DNA of 33,784 bases. Source: Gallionellaceae bacterium (GTDB taxonomy: Bacteria > Pseudomonadota > Gammaproteobacteria > Burkholderiales > Gallionellaceae). The stretch is taken from the NCBI GenBank assembly GCA_008080515.1, contig VIKH01000050.1, positions 1 to 33,784 on the forward strand. Direction: 5' to 3'. The notes below the pieces were generated by a model, which saw only the letters and a list, made by a program, of their open reading frames with translations, was not told the DNA's origin and did not search any database. Of this stretch, positions 13,357-33,784 are shown in pieces. Numbering within the stretch: position 1 is the stretch's first letter; each line of letters opens with the position of its first letter. The translations under genes and the position numbers were made by a program.

Positions 13357-14563
13357 TCATCTATGCAGCGCCGCCTTGCCCAGATCCCAGATCGGCAGGA
13401 AGATGCCCAGCGCCAGGATCAGCACCAGAACGCCCAGCGCCACGATCATGATCGGCTCGATCTGCTGGCTGAGGGTTTTGACTTCGTATTCCACTTCGCG
13501 CTCGTACATGCCGGCGATCTCGAACATCAGGCCGTCCATATCGCCGGTTTCCTCGCCCACCGCGATCATCTGCAATACCGTGGGATTGAACACCCCCGTC
13601 GCCATGGCGGTGCGCAGGATGCTTTCGCCGCGCTCTACACCGTCGCGCATCTGCTCGATACGCGAGCGCACAAACTCGTTGTCCACCACCATGCCGACCA
13701 CGTTCAGCCCCTGCACGATGGGGATGCCGCTCTTGAAGGCCAGCGCCAGGCTGCGCGCAAACCGCGCCAGCGTCGCCTTGAGAATGATTTTCCCGGCGAT
13801 GGGGATGCTGAATTTGAATTTGTCCCACTTGTACTTGCCGTCCGCCGTCGCGGTGTAGGCGCGGAAGCCGACCACCGCCCCGGCGACCAGCGCCAGCAGC
13901 AGCGGCCAGGAATGCAGCATGAAATCGGAGAAGCCGATGAGCGCCCGCGTCAATAAGGGCAATTCGGTGTGAAAGCCCGCGAACACCTTGACGAAAGCGG
14001 GGATGCATGGCGACCACAACAAACGTCGGGTAGCGCAGCGCACCCCGGATGCTTTCTTTCATCTGCTTCTCGAACTCGAGATGGAGGTACAGGCGCATGA
14101 AAGTTTCATCGAGCATGCCGGTCATTTCGCCGACCTGCACCATGCTGACGTAAAACGGCGAAAACACTTTGGGGTGTCGCCGCATCGCCGTGCTGAGCTC
14201 GCGCCCGCTATCCAGGCTTTCGCGCAGATCCTGCAACATCGCGGCGAAAGCGGGGTTCTGCGCCGACTCCTGCAAGCCTGCCAGGGAGCGCATGATGGGC
14301 ACGCCGGCCTTGAGCAGCGTGTACATCTGGCGGCTGAACAGCATCAGATCCAGCGGGTCAATCCGTTTTTCCCGCAAGGCGCGCCACAACAAGCCTTTGT
14401 TGGCGCCGTCGCCGGCACGCGAGGCGCGCGCGAGGGCAATCTCGGTGGGGGTGATGCCGGTGCGCAGCAACTGGTCGGCGACGGCGACGGAATCGGAGCC
14501 ATCCAGCGTACCCTGCACCAGATCGCCTTTTGCGCTCCTTCCCCTGTAGGCGAAAACTGCCAT
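13357..14563 (-). pseudogene. mshG: MshG, inner-membrane platform protein, frameshifted
   Basis: The first ~190 residues (MAVFAYRGRSAKGDLVQGTL...SIRGALRYPTFVVVAM) are a normal PilC/GspF-like N-terminal domain. The frame then changes, and the rest (IPAFVKVFAGFHTELPLLTR...LPIWDLGKAALHR) continues one base out of phase to a stop at 13357. The switch is near 14008. The hydrophobic stretch of about eleven residues that relatives have between VVVAM and IPAF is missing, so the lesion looks like a deletion of about 32 bases within the first transmembrane segment. Without correction the product would lack its second GspF domain. MshG is the polytopic platform on which MshE acts. Placed 14 bases after mshE. 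Assembly error is an alternative to real decay. Confidence 0.85.
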
Positions 14564-23477: not shown

Positions 23478-23732
23478 TTAGTCGCCCAACAGCCGCACCA
23501 GTTCGCCGCTCCGGTCCAGTGCGGCCAAGTCGTCGTAGCCGCCAACGTGGCGTGCGCCGATATAGATTTGCGGTACGGTGCGCCTGCCTGTTTTCTCCGT
23601 CATTTCGGCGCGCAGCTCCGGTTGCAGGTCAACGCGGATTTTTTCGATTTCCTTCACGCCCCTGGCACGCAACAAGCTCTCTGCCCGCACGCAATACGGA
23701 CAGATCTCGGTGCAATACATCAGAACCTTCAT
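23478..23732 (-). CDS. grxC: Glutaredoxin (GrxC-like)
   Basis: The product is 84 residues when started at ATG 23732 (MKVLMYCTEICPYCVRAESL). The dithiol active site is CPYC (residues 11-14), with the TVPQIYIG cis-proline loop and GGYDDLAALDRSGEL binding glutathione. It reduces disulfides and mixed disulfides using glutathione. The start overlaps the rhodanese stop (ATGA). The longer open frame upstream lies inside the rhodanese gene in another frame and is not coding. Confidence 0.95.
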   Translation of the reverse strand: MKVLMYCTEICPYCVRAESLLRARGVKEIEKIRVDLQPELRAEMTEKTGRRTVPQIYIGARHVGGYDDLAALDRSGELVRLLGD

Positions 23733-24139
23733 TTCTCCAGCGGCAAGCCGGACTTGGTCCAGGCAGTCATGCCCCCGTTGAGCAGGTAAACCTGGCCAAA
23801 ACCCTGCTTGCCCAGCAGCGCGCATGCCGAGTTTGAGCGGTTGCTGGTGCGGCATACAGCCACGACCGGCTGGTCGCGGTGGCGCTCCAGTTCGCCGGCG
23901 CGCTCCTTGAGCTTGCCGAGCGGTATGTTCCTGGAACCCAGGATATGCCCGTTCTTGAATTCATCCGGCTCGCGCACGTCCAGCACCAGCGCGCTCTTGT
24001 GGTTGATCAGCTGCAACGCCTCGGAGCAGCTCACTTCTTTGATGCCACGCAGACGGTTGCCGAAGTGCGCCCAGAAAAACATGGCACCACTCAAGATCGC
24101 CACCAGAATCAGCCCGACGTTATCCTGCAAGTATTGCAT
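23729..24139 (-). CDS. Membrane-anchored rhodanese-like protein
   Basis: The 136-residue protein has one N-terminal transmembrane helix (about residues 8-26, GLILVAILSGAMFFWAHFG) and a single rhodanese domain with LVLDVREPDEFKNGHI and the catalytic loop VVAVCRTSNRS (Cys at about 95). Rhodaneses of this type carry persulfide sulfur on the loop Cys. The gene is the first of the grx-secB-gpsA block and overlaps the end of the ligase gene by 20 bases. It is conserved beside secB in betaproteobacteria. Substrate unknown. Confidence 0.9.
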   Translation of the reverse strand: MQYLQDNVGLILVAILSGAMFFWAHFGNRLRGIKEVSCSEALQLINHKSALVLDVREPDEFKNGHILGSRNIPLGKLKERAGELERHRDQPVVAVCRTSNRSNSACALLGKQGFGQVYLLNGGMTAWTKSGLPLEK

Positions 24140-26211: not shown

Positions 26212-26421
26212 TCAGCAACTGCCGCGCACACCGAACTTCTTCAGTATGCTGTCGAGCGGGCAGAAGTTGGTGAAGCCGCTCTGGAACAGGTTCAGGCCGA
26301 CGAAGGCGGTGAGGAGAAAGAAGTACCGGCTGACGAAAAGCGGGCTGCCTTCCACGGCCAGCAGCAGGGACAGCAGGATGAAGGTCCCGGCGACAATATG
26401 TACGATGCGGTCTGCGTTCAT
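26212..26421 (-). CDS. DUF2892 (YgaP-type) small membrane protein
   Basis: The 69-residue protein starts MNADRIVHIVAGTFILLSLL and has two hydrophobic helices. The conserved NLFQSGFTNFCPLDSILKKFG includes the FCPL signature of the YgaP transmembrane/DUF2892 family. Members are often fused to or next to rhodaneses and sulfide-metabolism genes. Its ATG overlaps the RND permease stop (ATGA), so it is the last gene of the sulfide-linked operon. A membrane role in sulfur or persulfide handling is inferred from context. Confidence 0.88.
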   Translation of the reverse strand: MNADRIVHIVAGTFILLSLLLAVEGSPLFVSRYFFLLTAFVGLNLFQSGFTNFCPLDSILKKFGVRGSC

Positions 26422-29400
26422 GGTGTTACTCCTTTGGGGTTGAAAATTCCTTCAGATTTTTTGTACAGCGTGGCGTAATACAGCACCGGGATCACCACCA
26501 GCGTCAGCGCGGTGGATACCGTGATACCAAAAATCAGCGCGATGGCCAGCCCGTTGAAAATCGGATCATCCAGGATGAACAGCGCCCCCAGCATGGCCGC
26601 CAGGCCGGTCAGCAGGATCGGCTTGGCGCGCGCCGCCGCCGCCGCGATCACGGCCTGCTCCAGCGCGATGCCATCACGCAGTTGCAGGTTGATGAAGTCC
26701 ACCAGCAGGATGGAGTTGCGCACGATGATGCCGGCCAGCGCGATCATGCCGATCATCGAAGTGGCGGTAAACTGGCTGCCCAGCAGCGCGTGGCCGGGCA
26801 TCACACCGATGAGGGTGAGCGGGATCGGCGCCATGATGATCAGCGGCACCAGATAGCTCTTGAACTGCGCCACCACCAGCAGGTAGATCAACACCAACCC
26901 GACGGCATAGGCGATGCCCATGTCGCGGAAAGTCTCGAACGTCACCTGCCATTCCCCGTCCCACTTCAGCGCGTAGCCCGCGTAGGGGTTGGATGGCTGC
27001 TTGAAGAAATAAGGCTCCAGCTTGCCGCCTTGCTCCAGCGCCATGCCGGCAGTCTGCGCGTTGATGCCGAACATGCCGTACAGCGGGCTGTCCAGCTCGC
27101 CCGCCATATCGCCGAACACGTACACCACCGGCAGCAAATCCTTGCGGTAGATCGGATAATCGCGCTCCACCTGTACCGGTTTCACCACTTCTGACAGCGG
27201 CACCAGCACCCCGGAACTGCTGCGCACCTTGAGCTTGAGCACATCGGCGATGTTACTGCGCTGCTCGGGCGGCAAGCCGAGGCGCAGCGGCGGTGCATAT
27301 TTTGCCGCCGCATCGTGCAGCGAAGTCACATCCTGCCCCGACAAAGCGACATGGATTGCGTCCACGATGTCGTGCGGCGCCACCCCGAGCAGCGCCGCCT
27401 TGTTTTGCAGGACATGCAATACCAGCTTGGGCGCGGCTTCGGTCACGCTGTCGTCCACCGCCACGATATCCGCAGTCTTGCCGAACTGTTCGCGCACCTG
27501 CCGCGCCACCTTGCGCGCGCCCTCGTAGTCCGGCCCGTACACTTCGGCCACGATCGGCGACATCACCGGCGGGCCGGGCGGCACTTCCACGATCTTAACG
27601 TTGGCGCCCCATTTTTTTGCGATGACCTCAATCGGCCCGCGCACGCTGCCAGCAATTTCGTGGCTGCTGCGCTGGCGCTCATGCTTGTCTTGCAAGTTGA
27701 CCTGGAGGTCGCCTTGTTCGGCGGCGCTGCGCAGGTAATATTGGCGCACCAGGCCGTTGAAGTTGATCGGCGAGGCGGTGCCGGCATAGCCCTGATAGTC
27801 GCTCACTTCCGGGACCGTGGCCAGATACGCCCCGATTTCGCGCAACACCGCAGCGGTCTGCTCCAGCGCCGTGCCACTGGGCATATCCACCACCACCTGG
27901 AATTCCGACTTGTTGTCGAACGGCAGCATTTTCAGCACCACCGCTTTCATTCCACCCAGCGCCACCGCGAAAAATAGCCCGGCAACAATGCCGAGCCACA
28001 GCTTCCGACGCGCGGGCTTGCCGAGTTCGCGGTTGAGAAACGGCGCCAGAAGCGGGCCGAAGAAGCGCGCCGCTGCTGCGCCACCGCCATGCTCCGCCGT
28101 CGCGCCACCCTTTGCGGCAAAGCGCAACGCCAACCACGGCGTAATGACAAAAGCCACCGCCAGCGAGATCAGCATGCCCATGCTGGCGTTGATCGGAATC
28201 GGGCTCATGTACGGCCCCATCAGCCCGCTGACAAAAGCCATCGGCAGCAAGGCGGCGATCACCGTGAAGGTGGCGAGGATGGTCGGGCCGCCCACTTCGT
28301 CCACCGCTTCAGGGATAATTTCGGGTAATGGGCGATGCGGTGACAACCCGCGATGGCGGTGTACGTTCTCCACTACGACAATGGCGTCATCCACCAGGAT
28401 GCCGATGGAGAAAATCAGCGCGAACAGCGACACGCGGTTCAGCGTGAAGCCCCACGCCCAGGAAGCGAACAGCGTCGCCGCCAGAGTAAGCAGCACCGCT
28501 ATGCCGACGATGAACGCCTCGCGCCGCCCCATCGCCATCCACACCAGCGCCACCACCGCGACGGTGGCGAAAATCAGTTTCTGGATCAGCTTCTTTGCCT
28601 TGTCGTTGGCTGTTTCGCCATAATTCCGCGTGGCGGTGACCTGAACGTCCGAGGGGATCACGCTGCCCTTCAGCTCTTCCACGCGCTGCAACAACCGGTC
28701 GGCGACCTCCACAGCGTTCTCGCCGGGTTTTTTGGTCACCGCCACGGTGACGGCGGTGAATTCGCCGCGCGGCTTGATACCCTTGCCGGATGCGGCCGCA
28801 CCGGTGCCAAACCAGGCATAGCTGGAAGGCTGGTCGGCGCCATCCAGGATCTCCGCCACATCGTGCATGAACACCGCTCGGCCTTCGCTGGCGCCGATCA
28901 CCAGTTCGCCCACCTCGCTGGCATCGCTCAAAAAATTTCCGGTCTGCACCAGTATTTCGCGGTTGTTCTGCACCAGGCTGCCCGCGCTTTGCGATACGTT
29001 GGCGGCTTGCAGTGCAGCGCGCACCTCCTGCACCGAAAGCCGGTAGGCGTTCAACTTTTCCGGGTTGAGCAATACGCGCACCACTCTGGGGGTGGCGCCC
29101 AGCGTCGCCACCTCGCGCGTGCCGCCGACGCGCTTCAGTTCGGCCTCGATGGCGTGCGCCACCTGGGTCAGCGCCAGGCCGCTGGCGAGCGGGTCTTCGC
29201 GCCACAAGGTGAACGCCACCACCGGCACGTCGTCTATGCCCTTGGCCTTGATGATCGGCTGCGCCACCCCGAGGGTGGGGGGCAGCCAGTCAACATTGGA
29301 ATGGACAACATCGTACAGCTTGACCAGCGAGGGGATGTGTTCTTCGCCCACCTTGAACTGCACGGTGAGAATCGCCATGTCTGGCCGCGATACCGAGTAC

Positions 29401-29648
29401 ACGTGATCCACCCCGGAAATCTGCGACAGCACCTGCTCGGCGGGAACCGCTACGGTGCGCTCCACATCCCGTGCCGACGCGCCGGGATAGGCGATCAGCA
29501 CGTTCGCCATGGTGACGTTGATCTGCGGCTCTTCCTCGCGCGGCGTGACCAGCACCGCGAACAGGCCGAGCAGCACCGCCACCAGCGCCAGCAGCGGCGT
29601 CATCTGCGAATGCAGGAAGTAGCGCGCGATGCGCCCGGAAATTCCCAT
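26418..29648 (-). CDS. RND-family efflux permease (AcrB/HAE-1-like)
   Basis: The 1,076-residue inner-membrane protein has the RND layout of two halves, each with a transmembrane helix, a large periplasmic loop and five more helices. The first helix is LLALVAVLLGLFAVLVTPRE. YPGASARDVERTVAVPAEQVL and the proton-relay helix IFSIGILVDDAIVVVENVH, with its Asp pair, are typical. The C-terminal half has ATSMIGMIALAGIIVRNSIL. It probably forms a tripartite pump with the adjacent periplasmic adaptor and an outer-membrane factor encoded elsewhere. The substrate is unknown; linkage to sqr suggests a sulfur-related compound. A terminator-like hairpin lies between it and sqr. Confidence 0.92.
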   Translation of the reverse strand: MGISGRIARYFLHSQMTPLLALVAVLLGLFAVLVTPREEEPQINVTMANVLIAYPGASARDVERTVAVPAEQVLSQISGVDHVYSVSRPDMAILTVQFKVGEEHIPSLVKLYDVVHSNVDWLPPTLGVAQPIIKAKGIDDVPVVAFTLWREDPLASGLALTQVAHAIEAELKRVGGTREVATLGATPRVVRVLLNPEKLNAYRLSVQEVRAALQAANVSQSAGSLVQNNREILVQTGNFLSDASEVGELVIGASEGRAVFMHDVAEILDGADQPSSYAWFGTGAAASGKGIKPRGEFTAVTVAVTKKPGENAVEVADRLLQRVEELKGSVIPSDVQVTATRNYGETANDKAKKLIQKLIFATVAVVALVWMAMGRREAFIVGIAVLLTLAATLFASWAWGFTLNRVSLFALIFSIGILVDDAIVVVENVHRHRGLSPHRPLPEIIPEAVDEVGGPTILATFTVIAALLPMAFVSGLMGPYMSPIPINASMGMLISLAVAFVITPWLALRFAAKGGATAEHGGGAAAARFFGPLLAPFLNRELGKPARRKLWLGIVAGLFFAVALGGMKAVVLKMLPFDNKSEFQVVVDMPSGTALEQTAAVLREIGAYLATVPEVSDYQGYAGTASPINFNGLVRQYYLRSAAEQGDLQVNLQDKHERQRSSHEIAGSVRGPIEVIAKKWGANVKIVEVPPGPPVMSPIVAEVYGPDYEGARKVARQVREQFGKTADIVAVDDSVTEAAPKLVLHVLQNKAALLGVAPHDIVDAIHVALSGQDVTSLHDAAAKYAPPLRLGLPPEQRSNIADVLKLKVRSSSGVLVPLSEVVKPVQVERDYPIYRKDLLPVVYVFGDMAGELDSPLYGMFGINAQTAGMALEQGGKLEPYFFKQPSNPYAGYALKWDGEWQVTFETFRDMGIAYAVGLVLIYLLVVAQFKSYLVPLIIMAPIPLTLIGVMPGHALLGSQFTATSMIGMIALAGIIVRNSILLVDFINLQLRDGIALEQAVIAAAAARAKPILLTGLAAMLGALFILDDPIFNGLAIALIFGITVSTALTLVVIPVLYYATLYKKSEGIFNPKGVTP

Positions 29649-29662
29649 ATTATTTTCTCAGT

Positions 29663-29703
29663 AAAAAAACCGCAGCGAGCCAGGCTTGTCTGCCTGGTTG
29701 CGG
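29663..29703 (-). terminator. Terminator-like hairpin between sqr and the RND permease gene
   Basis: On the minus strand the stem CCGCA-CCAGGC / GCCTGG-TGCGG has an internal bulge and an AGACAA loop, and is followed directly by seven T (29669-29663). It would partly end transcription after sqr and reduce permease expression. Confidence 0.6.
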
Positions 29704-29718
29704 CTTCTTGCGATGGTA

Positions 29719-30990
29719 TTACTTCAGTTTTTCGATGCCCATCATTTTGAGCAGGCTCTTCTCATAGAACGGGTCTGAAGAACCTTTCTTTATCTTGCGG
29801 ATAAAGTATTTTTCAAACGCCACCTTCGCCAGATGCACCCACTTGCCCTCCGAGAACCAGTTCACGTTGCGCGGCGGGATCTGCGGCATCGCCACAAACG
29901 CGATCCCGCTATCGCCGAAATCCGCCAGGCAAACCGCATTCCAGGTCGCATTGCTGTCAGGCGGATTGCCGTTCAGTTCGGCCTGGATGTTATGCGCCGT
30001 TGCCGTCACCATGGATTCAATCATGTAGCCGGTCTTCGGGGTGCCGCATGGAACCGGTGTCACTTCCACCGGCGGGATGGCCACGCACACGCCGACCGCA
30101 TAAATGTTCTTGTATTTCGGGTTGCGCTGATGCTCATCCACAATGATGAAGCCGCGCGGATTGGTCAGGCCTTCGATGCCGAACACCGCATCTATGCCCT
30201 TGAAAGCGGGCAACATCATGCTGTAGGCAAACGGCAGCTCGTGTTTCTTCTTTTCGTTGCCTGTTTCATCAACTTCCGTGACATGCATCTTGCCCGGCTC
30301 GACCTTGGTGACCTTGGCATTGCAAATCCACTTGATGTGCCGGTCGCGCATCGCCGATTCGAGCATGCCCTTGGAGTCGCCCACGCCACCCAATCCAAGA
30401 TGGCCGATATAAGGCTCGGAGGTGACGAAGGTCATCGGCACCTTGTTGCGGATCTTGCGGCGGCGCAAATCGGTTTCCATGATGAACGCATATTCATATG
30501 CCGGCCCGAAGCAGGATGCGCCTTGCACCGCGCCCACCACGATTGGGCCGGGGTTCTTTGTGAAATGCTCCCATTCGCCATGCGATTTCATGGCGTGATC
30601 CACATGGCAAACCGAATGGGTGTGCCCTCCGTGCGGACCCAGTCCTTCGATTTCATCGAAAGCCAGCTTGGGGCCGGTGGCGATTACCAGGAAATCGTAG
30701 CTCACCGACTGTCCGTCATTCAGTTCGAGACGATTCTCCTCCGGGTGTACCCGTTTTACGCCGGAGGAGATGAAACCGATGCCCTTGCGCTCAAGATAGG
30801 AGCGAACCGGGAACTCGATGTCTTTGCGGTCGCGCCATTTCACGCCTACCCATGGGTTGGAAGGCACAAAGTGGAAGTTCTCGCTGTTCGAGATCACTGT
30901 CACCTTGTCGCCCTTGCGGATTTTTTCCTGCATTTCGTAGGCCATCGGCATTCCGCCGATGCCCGCCCCCATGATGACAATGTGCGCCAT
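29719..30990 (-). CDS. sqr: Sulfide:quinone oxidoreductase, type I
   Basis: The 423-residue flavoprotein oxidises sulfide and passes electrons to quinone at the membrane. The FAD-binding N-terminus MAHIVIMGAGIGGMPMAYEM is followed by NFHFVPSNPWVGVKW, characteristic of the group. The three redox cysteines known from the Acidithiobacillus ferrooxidans enzyme (128, 160, 356) have counterparts at C128 (THSVCHV), C160 (GASCFGP) and C354 (NAVCLADFG). The C-terminus ends with an amphipathic stretch (HLAKVAFEKYFIRKIKK) for membrane attachment. A GGGGGG-containing ribosome binding site lies before the ATG. It sits 29 bases after the RND adaptor gene and 70 bases before the permease gene. Activity is well supported. 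Confidence 0.93.
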   Translation of the reverse strand: MAHIVIMGAGIGGMPMAYEMQEKIRKGDKVTVISNSENFHFVPSNPWVGVKWRDRKDIEFPVRSYLERKGIGFISSGVKRVHPEENRLELNDGQSVSYDFLVIATGPKLAFDEIEGLGPHGGHTHSVCHVDHAMKSHGEWEHFTKNPGPIVVGAVQGASCFGPAYEYAFIMETDLRRRKIRNKVPMTFVTSEPYIGHLGLGGVGDSKGMLESAMRDRHIKWICNAKVTKVEPGKMHVTEVDETGNEKKKHELPFAYSMMLPAFKGIDAVFGIEGLTNPRGFIIVDEHQRNPKYKNIYAVGVCVAIPPVEVTPVPCGTPKTGYMIESMVTATAHNIQAELNGNPPDSNATWNAVCLADFGDSGIAFVAMPQIPPRNVNWFSEGKWVHLAKVAFEKYFIRKIKKGSSDPFYEKSLLKMMGIEKLK

Positions 30991-31019
30991 ATTGCTACCC
31001 CCCGTAAGTTGAAGAACCG

Positions 31020-32064
31020 CTACTTCTGTTTTGCACCTGACATCCCGGCCTTGACCGGTTCCAGCGCCACTTTTTCGCCGGGGTTCAGCCCGGCCAGGAT
31101 TTCGACTTCATCCTGTCCGGTTGCTTCGCCCAGGCGCACCTGGCGCAGTTTTACCGCGCCCTTGTCATCCACCACATACACCGCCACCACCTCGCTGCGG
31201 CGCAGCACCGCCCCAGACGGGATCAGCAGCTTGTTCGCCTTGCCGGTCACGAACTGGACGCGCACGAACATGCCGGGATAAATACCGGCCTCGTTGGCGG
31301 GTAATTGCACGCGCACCTGGGTGCTGTGCGTGCGCGCATCGGCTGCCGGGCTCACCGTTGCTGTCGTGGCGGCGATCATGCGGCCGGACGATGCGATTTT
31401 TACCGTGGCTTCCGGGCGGGCACCGATATCGGCCAGCTTGTGCTGTGGCACGTGGACGATGACGCGCATTTGCGATGGATCGAAACCGGTCATCAGCGGC
31501 TTGCCGACCGTGACCATTTCGCCCACTTCCACGTGGCGCGCCGCCACTACCCCGCCATAAGGTGCAATTACAGCGGTGTAGGCCTGCGCCAGCGCCGATT
31601 GGCCGGCGCCCGCTTCACTGGCCGCCGCCTGCGCCTGCGCCACCCGGTAGTCTGCCTCTGCCTTGTCCAGCGCGGCCTGGCTGATGAATTTTTGCGCGTA
31701 CAACTGGCGCGCCCGCTCGTACTCGGATTTTGCGTTCTGCGCGGCGGCCTGAGCCTGCATCACCTGCGCCCGGCTGCCGGCCATGGCTTGTGCCGCCTCG
31801 CGCTCGTCTATGCGTAAAATGACCTGACCCTTTCTGACCGTATCGCCGGCATCGAACAGGATTTATTTCCTTTACCCGCCCGGCAATCTGCGCCGACACC
31901 GTGGATTGGCGCGCCGCTTCCACCACGCCATCCGCGCTCCAGGTCAGCGCCACCTCGCGGTATTGAGCCACAGTGGTGGCAAGCGGTTCTGCCGCCCGCG
32001 CGGCGGGCGCGAGGGCGGTGCAGGCCAAACCGAAAACCAGCAGGGATAATGCGCGTAGCGTCAT
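31020..32064 (-). pseudogene. RND periplasmic adaptor (membrane fusion protein), frameshifted
   Basis: The N-terminus MTLRALSLLVFGLACTALAP is a signal peptide, followed by SADGVVEAARQSTVSAQIAG and RVKEIN, the start of the lipoyl-like domain. The sequence then resumes one frame away as FDAGDTVRKGQVILRIDERE, a coiled-coil hairpin (MAGSRAQVMQAQAAAQNAKS...AQKFISQAALDKAEA) and the beta-barrel ending ILAGLNPGEKVALEPVKAGM. The slip is near 31856-31866 (AATCCTGTTCG on the minus strand). The span is 1,045 bases, one more than a multiple of three, so a single inserted base would explain it. The adaptor bridges the RND permease and an outer-membrane channel. ATG 32064 has GGTGA six bases upstream. Sequencing error is a real alternative. 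Confidence 0.8.
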
Positions 32065-32090
32065 GGTTGTCACCGGAATGATGAATCTGA

Positions 32091-32110
32091 ATATTAGGAT
32101 ATTCTAATAT
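32091..32110. promoter_or_regulatory. BigR/SqrR-like operator upstream of the sulfide-RND operon
   Basis: ATATTAGGATATTCTAATAT is a 20-bp inverted repeat with perfect 7-bp arms (ATATTAG/CTAATAT), ending 27 bases before the adaptor ATG. AT-rich palindromes of this kind are bound by the BigR/YgaV/SqrR group of ArsR-type persulfide sensors, which control sqr, persulfide dioxygenase and DUF2892 genes elsewhere. It overlaps possible -10 sequences on the minus strand. No such regulator gene is in the window, so the regulator assignment is inference. Confidence 0.6.
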
Positions 32111-32286
32111 GCAGTAAAAAGCAACCGGCTGGCTGCTGTTACGTTTCATGCGGGTAATGGCATCTATACCCTATAGCCTGTGGCAAGGCCAGTCCTTTGC
32201 TGCTAAATTGCGAAATTATCAGGGATCAATATCAACAGGTTAAATATGGCCCGCATCGTTGCTCCGCAAAAATCCGGCGTTCCGAG

Positions 32287-33784
32287 ATGCCGTTAAGCTG
32301 GGATGAAATCCGCAGCCGCGCCCACGAATTTTCCAGGCACTGGGAAGGCGAAAGCTCGGAGCGCGCCGAGGCGCAGAGCTTCTGGAACGAATTTTTCTCG
32401 GTGTTCGGCATCGAGCGCAAGCGCGTCGCCGTGTTTGAAAAGCAGGTGTCCATCGCGCGTGCCGGGCACAAGCTCAAGCAAGGCCGCATAGACGCATTCT
32501 GGAAAGGCGTGCTGCTGATCGAGCACAAGAGCCTGGGGCAGGATTTGAGCCGCGCTTTCGCGCAGGCCGCAGACTATTTTGACGGCCTGCCCGAGCGCGA
32601 CCTGCCGCGTTACATACTGGTCTCCGACTTTGCGAACTTCCGCCTGTACGATCTGGAAGACAACACCGAGACCGAATTCCGCCTCGCCGACCTGCACAAG
32701 CGCATCAAGCATTTCGCCTTCATCGCCGGCTACCGCACGCAAACCATCGCGCCGCAGAACCCGGTCAACATCAAGGCCGCCGAGCGCATGGGAAAACTGC
32801 ACGATGCGCTCAAGGCGGCGGGCTACGGGGGCCACCCGCTCGAAGTGCTGCTGGTGCGGCTGCTGTTCTGCCTGTTCGCCGAAGACACCGGCATCTTCCA
32901 GCCCGCCAGCGCGTTTCGCGCCTGGGTTGAGGAACGCACCGCGCCCGACGGCACCGACCTCGGCGCGCAACTGGCGCTGCTGTTCCAGGTGCTCAACACG
33001 CCGGAAGATCACCGTCCCAGGACGCTGGACGAACAGATCGCCGCCTTTCCCTACGTCAACGGCAAGCTGTTCGAGGAGGCGCTGCCCATCGCCGCCTTCG
33101 ATCTCACCATGCGCGAGGCGCTGCTCGATTGCTGTGCGCTGGACTGGAGCGCCATCTCGCCCGCTATCTTTGGCGCACTGTTCCAGAGCATCATGGATGC
33201 CAGGGCGCGGCGCAACCTCGGCGCGCACTACACCAGCGAAGAGAACATCCTCAAGCTGATCGGGCCGCTGTTCCTCGATGATCTGCGTGAGGAATTCAAG
33301 CGGGTGAAAGGCAACAGGAACAGGCTGTTCGAGTTTCACAAGAAATTGCGCTCGCTGACTTTCTTCGACCCCGCCTGCGGCTGCGGCAACTTCCTGGTGA
33401 TCGCCTACCGCGAACTGCGCAAACTGGAGCTGGACGTGCTGCGCGCCGTGCATGAAGGCCCCGGCTCGCGCTTCCTCGACATCCACCAGCAAATCAGCGT
33501 GGACGTGGACCAGTTCTTCGGCATCGAGATCGAAGAGTTTCCGGCGCAGATCGCGCAGGTCGCGCTGTGGCTGATGGACCACCAGATGAACGTGCGCGTG
33601 TCGGAAGAATTCGGCATGTACTTCGCGCGCATCCCGCTCAAGACCTCGCCCCACATCGTCCACGGCAACGCGCTCGCGCTGGACTGGAACACCGTGCTGC
33701 CGGCGGAACAGGCGAGCTACGTATTCGGCAACCCGCCGTTCGTCGGCGCGAAATTCATGGACGATGCCCAGCGCGAGGACGTGC
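32287..33784 (+). CDS. MmeI-like type IIG restriction-modification enzyme (5' part; runs off the window)
   Basis: The frame from ATG 32287 (MPLSWDEIRSRAHEFSRHWE) is open to the right edge, about 499 codons; family members are roughly 900 residues or more. The N-terminal nuclease has D69-(9 residues)-E79-H-K81, matching the D-X9-EXK motif of MmeI. A helical connector spans about residues 165-330. Methyltransferase motif I is DPACGCGN (361-368) and motif IV is NPPF (482-485), placing it in the N6-adenine group. The target-recognition domain lies outside the window. These single-chain enzymes both methylate and cut at a set distance from their site. The 222-base gap to the divergent adaptor gene contains only the operator and a 16-codon frame overlapping this start. 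Confidence 0.9.
   Translation, partial: MPLSWDEIRSRAHEFSRHWEGESSERAEAQSFWNEFFSVFGIERKRVAVFEKQVSIARAGHKLKQGRIDAFWKGVLLIEHKSLGQDLSRAFAQAADYFDGLPERDLPRYILVSDFANFRLYDLEDNTETEFRLADLHKRIKHFAFIAGYRTQTIAPQNPVNIKAAERMGKLHDALKAAGYGGHPLEVLLVRLLFCLFAEDTGIFQPASAFRAWVEERTAPDGTDLGAQLALLFQVLNTPEDHRPRTLDEQIAAFPYVNGKLFEEALPIAAFDLTMREALLDCCALDWSAISPAIFGALFQSIMDARARRNLGAHYTSEENILKLIGPLFLDDLREEFKRVKGNRNRLFEFHKKLRSLTFFDPACGCGNFLVIAYRELRKLELDVLRAVHEGPGSRFLDIHQQISVDVDQFFGIEIEEFPAQIAQVALWLMDHQMNVRVSEEFGMYFARIPLKTSPHIVHGNALALDWNTVLPAEQASYVFGNPPFVGAKFMDDAQREDV

Follow-up and report, generated by a model that had tools for sequence, protein, structure and literature searches.

Why a gene for a type I sulfide:quinone oxidoreductase (SQR) should lie inside the operon of a resistance-nodulation-division (RND) efflux pump, and what would switch such an operon on, are the questions raised by a stretch of DNA from a Gallionellaceae bacterium (assembly GCA_008080515.1, contig VIKH01000050.1, positions 1 to 33,784). 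The whole stretch of 33,784 nucleotides is called the window here, and the positions listed below are those of the whole stretch. It is suggested, with a probability of roughly 0.6, that the operon specifies a sulfide-induced tripartite RND exporter under a two-cysteine ArsR regulator of the BigR/SqrR/YgaV type, which removes a product of sulfide oxidation or a toxic species accompanying it. The observations concern the gene content of the operon, its operator, the regulator gene, the sharing of the operator with tolC and the recurrent joining of sqr to the pump. On the minus strand, the order of genes was found to be RND adaptor, type I SQR, HAE-type RND permease and YgaP-like (DUF2892) gene, and the order claimed in an earlier note on this DNA was thus borne out by open reading frames (ORFs) and profile matches:

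32091-32110, no strand: operator palindrome ATATTAG-N6-CTAATAT, 20 bp, exact, 26 bases from the adaptor start codon
31020-32064 overall, minus strand: RND adaptor (membrane fusion protein, MFP), in two frames in the assembly
31855-32064 (ATG at 32064), minus strand: N-terminal part of the RND adaptor with a signal-peptide-like start, from the ORF reading
31020-31784, frame open upstream to about 31850, minus strand: C-terminal part of the RND adaptor (TIGR01730, RND_mfp, 175.7 bits)
29719-30990, minus strand: type I SQR, 423 amino acids (solved-chain match and cysteines)
26418-29648, minus strand: RND permease of the HAE type, 1076 amino acids, without cysteine (profile and structure matches)
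26212-26421, minus strand: YgaP-like transmembrane protein, 69 amino acids (PF11127, DUF2892, 47.4 bits with a cut-off of 25.3)

There is a 4-base overlap between the permease and DUF2892 genes, and a gap of 29 bases separates the adaptor from SQR (the DUF2892 profile also matched out-of-frame ORFs lying within the RND gene, and such rows were set aside by eye). The palindrome said to stand in front of the operon is present and exact, and shuffles of the window gave 0.00. The best solved chain for SQR was the sulfide-quinone reductase 3sz0 (588.8 bits, E 6.3e-176), which we take to be the enzyme of A. ferrooxidans, followed by a match of 369.1 bits to 3hyv and of at most 63.5 bits to chains of other kinds. 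Residues C128, C160 and C354, presumably the catalytic cysteines as had been claimed, are all present and were invariant in 23/23 rows of SQR located near a pump (one row being a duplicate locus).

The permease matched PF00873 (ACR_tran) at 494.7 bits over its full length (profile positions 11-1018 of 1021) and contains the stretch VDDAIVVVEN, features that it shares with HAE-type RND pumps of solved structure (6vej, MdtB, MexB, AcrB), although these are distant, with at most 209.8 bits from the window permease to any solved chain. Unlike those pumps, the operon of the window contains no outer-membrane gene, and tolC lies elsewhere in the genome. A tolC-like gene (C129:3148-4455) was identified as the outer-membrane factor; it carries the operator with two mismatches and, the operon having no such gene of its own, would supply the third part of the pump. 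An outer-membrane (OEP-type) gene follows the permease in 17 other loci (one scanned, 16 by clustering). With permease, adaptor and outer-membrane factor all found, the system is by sequence a tripartite HAE-type RND pump, for which transport itself is predicted. As a separate observation, the permease is free of cysteine in 96/114 copies compared with 7/28 control ORFs (other RND matches of the relatives); a cysteine-poor permease as a trait is suggestive only, the controls being few and one control row (L270) not being RND.

Conservation of the palindrome was examined in 120 pump loci, comprising 39 from 61 genomes, 80 more (the best 80 of at least 579 confirmed) and the window, from which three duplicates were dropped to leave 117. 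An adaptor could be read upstream in 102 of these, and the stretch from 260 bases before to 110 bases after the start of the adaptor ORF was scanned. The earlier note had staked its proposal on the palindrome recurring upstream of orthologous operons, its absence there counting as refutation. With up to two mismatches it was found before the adaptor in 45 of the 102 readable loci (18, 17 and 10 loci with zero, one and two mismatches, respectively), and the proposal thus survives this test. On the same stretches, the reversed motif was found in none, a spacer of five in none, a spacer of seven in one and swapped halves in five, while dinucleotide shuffles gave a mean of 0.1 and a maximum of 1. 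Taxa bearing the palindrome were Gallionella-type bacteria, Thiobacillus, Accumulibacter and gammaproteobacteria including Thiocapsa, Allochromatium, Thioalkalivibrio and Contendobacter. Two loci of the window's own family whose pumps fall in a large Burkholderiales clade (L079, L080) have the exact palindrome before the permease, and in Azospirillum AATTTAGTCTTTGCTAAATT lies between a two-cysteine ArsR and the adaptor.

Within the 2.9 Mb genome of the window, the arms ATATTAG and CTAATAT around any six bases were found once exactly, once with one mismatch and three times with two mismatches, and the reversed motif used as control was found 0 times. The exact site is that of the RND/SQR operon. 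The site with one mismatch (on C49) lies before a small ORF weakly resembling N-acetyltransferases. Those with two mismatches lie directly before the ORF of an ArsR regulator, 57 bases before the ORF of a CysB-family regulator (C86, L298) and 20 bases before the tolC ORF on C129; no operator site was found at the tolC paralogue on C127. CysB governs sulfur assimilation in other bacteria. Given such a site immediately in front of its ORF, the ArsR gene may plausibly be under the control of its own product.

The wider reach of the operator was read from the 61 genomes, 38 of which contain the motif with at most one mismatch compared with 2/61 for the reversed control. Stretches around 40 listed sites away from the pump were taken for a reading of neighbours. 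Fourteen of these sites stand directly before a tolC-like gene, and of the 29 genomes of the window's family with a pump (a match of E <= 1e-200, four of the 29 being only 41-64% identical) at least 21 have a tolC with a site of up to two mismatches. A rhodanese gene was found directly after the site in two stretches (L195, L208) and 0.3-0.4 kb away in three (L212, L218, L220), and a DUF2892 gene without a pump lies downstream of the site in three others (L202, L217, L221). Single cases comprised a TusA-DsrE-SQR run (L214) and an OsmC-like gene (L206), and in two genomes of one genus (L200, L201, of which L200 was scanned) a site with one mismatch was located just before Rieske and cytochrome b genes. 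The rest of the 40 have other or unrecognised neighbours.

A BigR/SqrR homologue, which the earlier note had proposed to seek elsewhere in the genome, was found on the same contig. Of four ArsR-type matches (PF01022) in the genome, the best is located on the same strand (C56 39017-39388), 6.9 kb from the palindrome, and its best solved matches include HlyU, BigR, SqrR-type and YgaV chains (chains named only 'ArsR family' being taken by us to be SqrR). Its residues C55 and C121 align with the cysteines of HlyU and BigR and were invariant in 15/15 aligned rows. ArsR lies upstream of the adaptor and in the same direction in 20 of the 39 loci of the relatives, several others being cut by contig ends, and in a genome of the same genus (G001) ArsR, palindrome, adaptor and SQR all fall within 4 kb. 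Pump and ArsR occur together in 35 of the 61 genomes, with three having the pump only, three ArsR only and 20 neither (Fisher p 4e-10, kinship not corrected). The spacing ATT-N10-AAT is the same as that of the SqrR site ATTC-N8-GAAT quoted in the available text of PMC9774250, with different next letters (ATTA vs ATTC). From its cysteines and the operator spacing, the regulator is assigned as a putative persulfide sensor of the BigR/SqrR type for which release by persulfide is predicted. The idea that the palindrome is the operator of a persulfide-sensing ArsR is thus supported by its conservation and by such a regulator nearby; ArsR would bind the palindrome, with persulfide as the putative inducer. 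The regulatory part of the reading is strong, with an ArsR of the persulfide-sensing type and one operator that recurs in front of the pump, of the ArsR gene itself, of tolC and of several genes of sulfur metabolism.

On either side of the operon the window contains the following:

32197-33783, plus strand: start of an MmeI-type restriction-modification gene (PF20464, PF20465, PF20473)
23729-24139, minus strand: rhodanese-domain protein, downstream of the operon (profile match)

The operon is separated from ArsR by the MmeI-type gene and, beyond the window, by a DnaJ-like ORF and a multi-domain cytochrome c gene, and one gene of the PglL/O-antigen-ligase type lies between the DUF2892 and rhodanese genes. 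In the Thiobacillus relatives L096 and L098 a rhodanese gene directly follows the DUF2892 gene. The MmeI-type gene (L005:2198-5726) was observed to contain a DUF559 domain and a two-base run of N, and the cytochrome c protein (L005:7240-8979), encoded convergently with ArsR, to contain several haem domains. Elsewhere, six palindrome places and ArsR were found in genome G040, in which no pump of the family passed the cut-off.

In the accounts of the BigR, SqrR and YgaV regulons available in print, a two-cysteine ArsR, the ATT-N10-AAT spacing and DUF2892 or rhodanese neighbours recur as in this genome, with ygaV of E. coli paired with the sulfurtransferase YgaP. The targets differ, being a dioxygenase, membrane proteins, ygaP and anaerobic genes there and a tripartite RND pump with tolC here. 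No site with up to three mismatches was found in the ygaV stretch of E. coli, in which TTTAG-N6-CTTAA can be read twice by eye before ygaV. RND pumps are listed among likely targets of sulfane-sulfur-responsive two-cysteine ArsR regulators in PMC12423496, although section 2.1 of that article, as available, gives no operator, tolC or SQR-RND operon of the kind described here.

The following mechanism is proposed. A two-cysteine ArsR repressor would hold the exporter off until SQR oxidizes sulfide to sulfane sulfur (persulfide, polysulfide or S0), which would bridge the two cysteines of ArsR. The regulator would then leave ATATTAG-N6-CTAATAT before the adaptor and before tolC, so that adaptor, permease, DUF2892 protein and TolC would be made together, and the pump would clear a product of sulfide oxidation, or another toxic species arising with it, from the periplasm or inner membrane. 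The pump is thus probably switched on by sulfide-oxidation products through a conserved operator common to pump and tolC.

The order of the operon is itself not new. Azospira suillum PS genes Dsui_3440-3443, annotated as unknown protein, cation/multidrug efflux pump, SQR and RND-family MFP, have the same order as the window, the likeness being one of order and annotation (PMC5358917), and in an Accumulibacter locus (L100) adaptor, SQR and permease follow one another as in the window. According to the available text of PMC5358917, Dsui_3440-3443 were highly expressed with H2S and the operon was picked by Bar-seq, and the claim of a sulfide-induced pump therefore has a published parallel in the H2S-linked expression of an operon ordered in the same way. 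An increase of about tenfold is given there for a separate DUF2892 gene. That text draws no operator, ArsR or tolC link (the word TolC occurs 0 times in the main text), and no paper on an operator, ArsR or tolC link of this operon was found in a literature search that had subscription papers mostly outside it. Its authors propose metal-sulfide export, other RND pumps and iron-uptake genes having risen with H2S as well, and the pump of the window could accordingly export metal-sulfide complexes or metals, sulfide induction then serving metal stress. We regard this as decidedly unlikely, as the permease scores higher with multidrug models (NF033617, 426.6 bits) than with CusA/CzcA (236.5 bits), all being below their cut-offs, and as the other operator sites adjoin tolC, rhodanese, TusA-DsrE-SQR, OsmC-like and bc1 genes, some having no recognised neighbour. 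One site (L190) follows the end of an ORF resembling a metal P-type ATPase, by eye only.

How closely SQR itself belongs to the system was examined from its position and occurrence. In 24 of the 117 loci it lies no more than 7.5 kb from the pump, just before the permease in 11 (one of them, L103, at the very start of its contig, so that no adaptor is visible), downstream of the permease in nine, with an outer-membrane gene in between in five of these, before the adaptor in three and on the other strand in one. On a FastTree tree of 114 pumps (87 rows labelled for SQR, 27 left open owing to short flanks) its presence changes at least 19 times, gain and loss being indistinguishable. Pump and type I SQR are both present in 29 of the 61 genomes, with nine having the pump only, one SQR only and 22 neither (Fisher p 2e-8, kinship not corrected). 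SQR was tried as the core of the regulon and rejected, because the stand-alone sqr genes of 19 loci carry no palindrome; it is a frequent partner of the pump. The exceptions with a site were L168, the G001 copy of this operon, and L214, where the site is 921 bp before sqr in the TusA-DsrE-SQR run. RND pumps are often broad in substrate, and the pump might export unrelated toxicants with sulfide a mere cue of anoxia, as with YgaV, through which sulfide is tied to anaerobic genes and to tolerance of antibiotics in E. coli (PMC9774250, available text). This seems unlikely, given that sqr joins the pump in several positions and that the Azospira suillum operon was picked by Bar-seq with H2S (PMC5358917, available text).

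The adaptor, named as an operon gene in the earlier note, is present, but it is not one open frame, a break that the note did not notice. Its N- and C-terminal parts are in two frames, with the change at about 31850-31870, and the C-terminal part exceeds the TIGR01730 cut-off (94.9 bits). Together with the displacement of the regulator 6.9 kb away behind the MmeI-type gene, this could indicate that the operon is decaying in this genome, which is rather improbable: SQR, permease and DUF2892 genes are intact, the operator is exact, and the adaptor of G001 is one intact frame of 349 codons. Furthermore, a pilC/gspF-like gene (13357-14563, named by eye) is also in two frames through a probable single-base error or break, and the match of the CysB-family gene covers the first 169 residues only, probably owing to a frame break too. 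Because other genes of the genome likewise read in two frames, the break in the adaptor is likely an assembly error.

Several results weigh against the proposed sulfide-induced exporter. The adaptor frame is broken in the assembly, so the pump may not be made in this genome. Of the 102 readable loci, 57 have no palindrome with up to two mismatches in the scanned stretch (in at least one further locus, L084, it lies outside that stretch); in the large clade the readable Burkholderiales loci yielded none, and most adjacent ArsR genes there belong to a divergent other type that lacks the first cysteine. Two of the five sites in the window's genome, those before the acetyltransferase-like and CysB-family ORFs, have no sure link to sulfur or pump. 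At the cut-off used, type I SQR is missing from nine of the 38 genomes with the pump, and 19 stand-alone sqr loci (L169-L187, 20 copies; three copies, in G007, G013 and G029, were left out of the scan) have no site with up to three mismatches within 1.5 kb upstream, the best having four, so that sqr as such was not supported as a member of the regulon. In Paracoccus denitrificans a 43% identical pump is clustered with an MBL-fold hydrolase, YeeE/YedE, a sulfur transferase, DUF2892 and a two-cysteine ArsR, contents that fit a sulfur reading of the pump, but the neighbouring oxidoreductase shares only 21% identity with the window SQR. Finally, deletion of sqr or of the whole operon in Azospira suillum left H2S oxidation unchanged (0.49 vs 0.50 mM per hour for the whole operon; PMC5358917, available text), and the pump is therefore not needed for the oxidation itself.

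Two observations concern the Burkholderiales clade and the distribution of the pump. In L137, L140, L119, L128 and others the pump adjoins a divergent ArsR with an LC(D/E)LVC motif and without the first sensing cysteine, and in four loci of the clade a TATTTG-N10-CAAATA repeat was observed between the divergent ArsR and the pump genes. Pump copies on plasmids (51 records) are all less than 60% identical.

For a pump that is called up with sulfide yet dispensable for its oxidation, the simplest task is the removal of something harmful arising with sulfide. The sulfide-induced exporter would thus most likely relieve the toxicity of sulfide-oxidation products, with sulfane sulfur as the first candidate for its substrate. 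It is possible, if doubtful, that the pump is dedicated to the export of zero-valent sulfur (polysulfide or S0), taking the product of SQR from the inner-membrane and periplasmic side through TolC; if so, this would account for the sulfur that some sulfide oxidizers place outside the cell. The finding ties a beta- and gammaproteobacterial RND pump family to the persulfide-sensing type of regulator through a defined operator, and names an outer-membrane channel with the same operator. An unexplained operon of a published H2S screen thereby becomes a testable regulon and, should sulfane sulfur be the substrate, one with a bearing on the extracellular deposition of sulfur by sulfide oxidizers.

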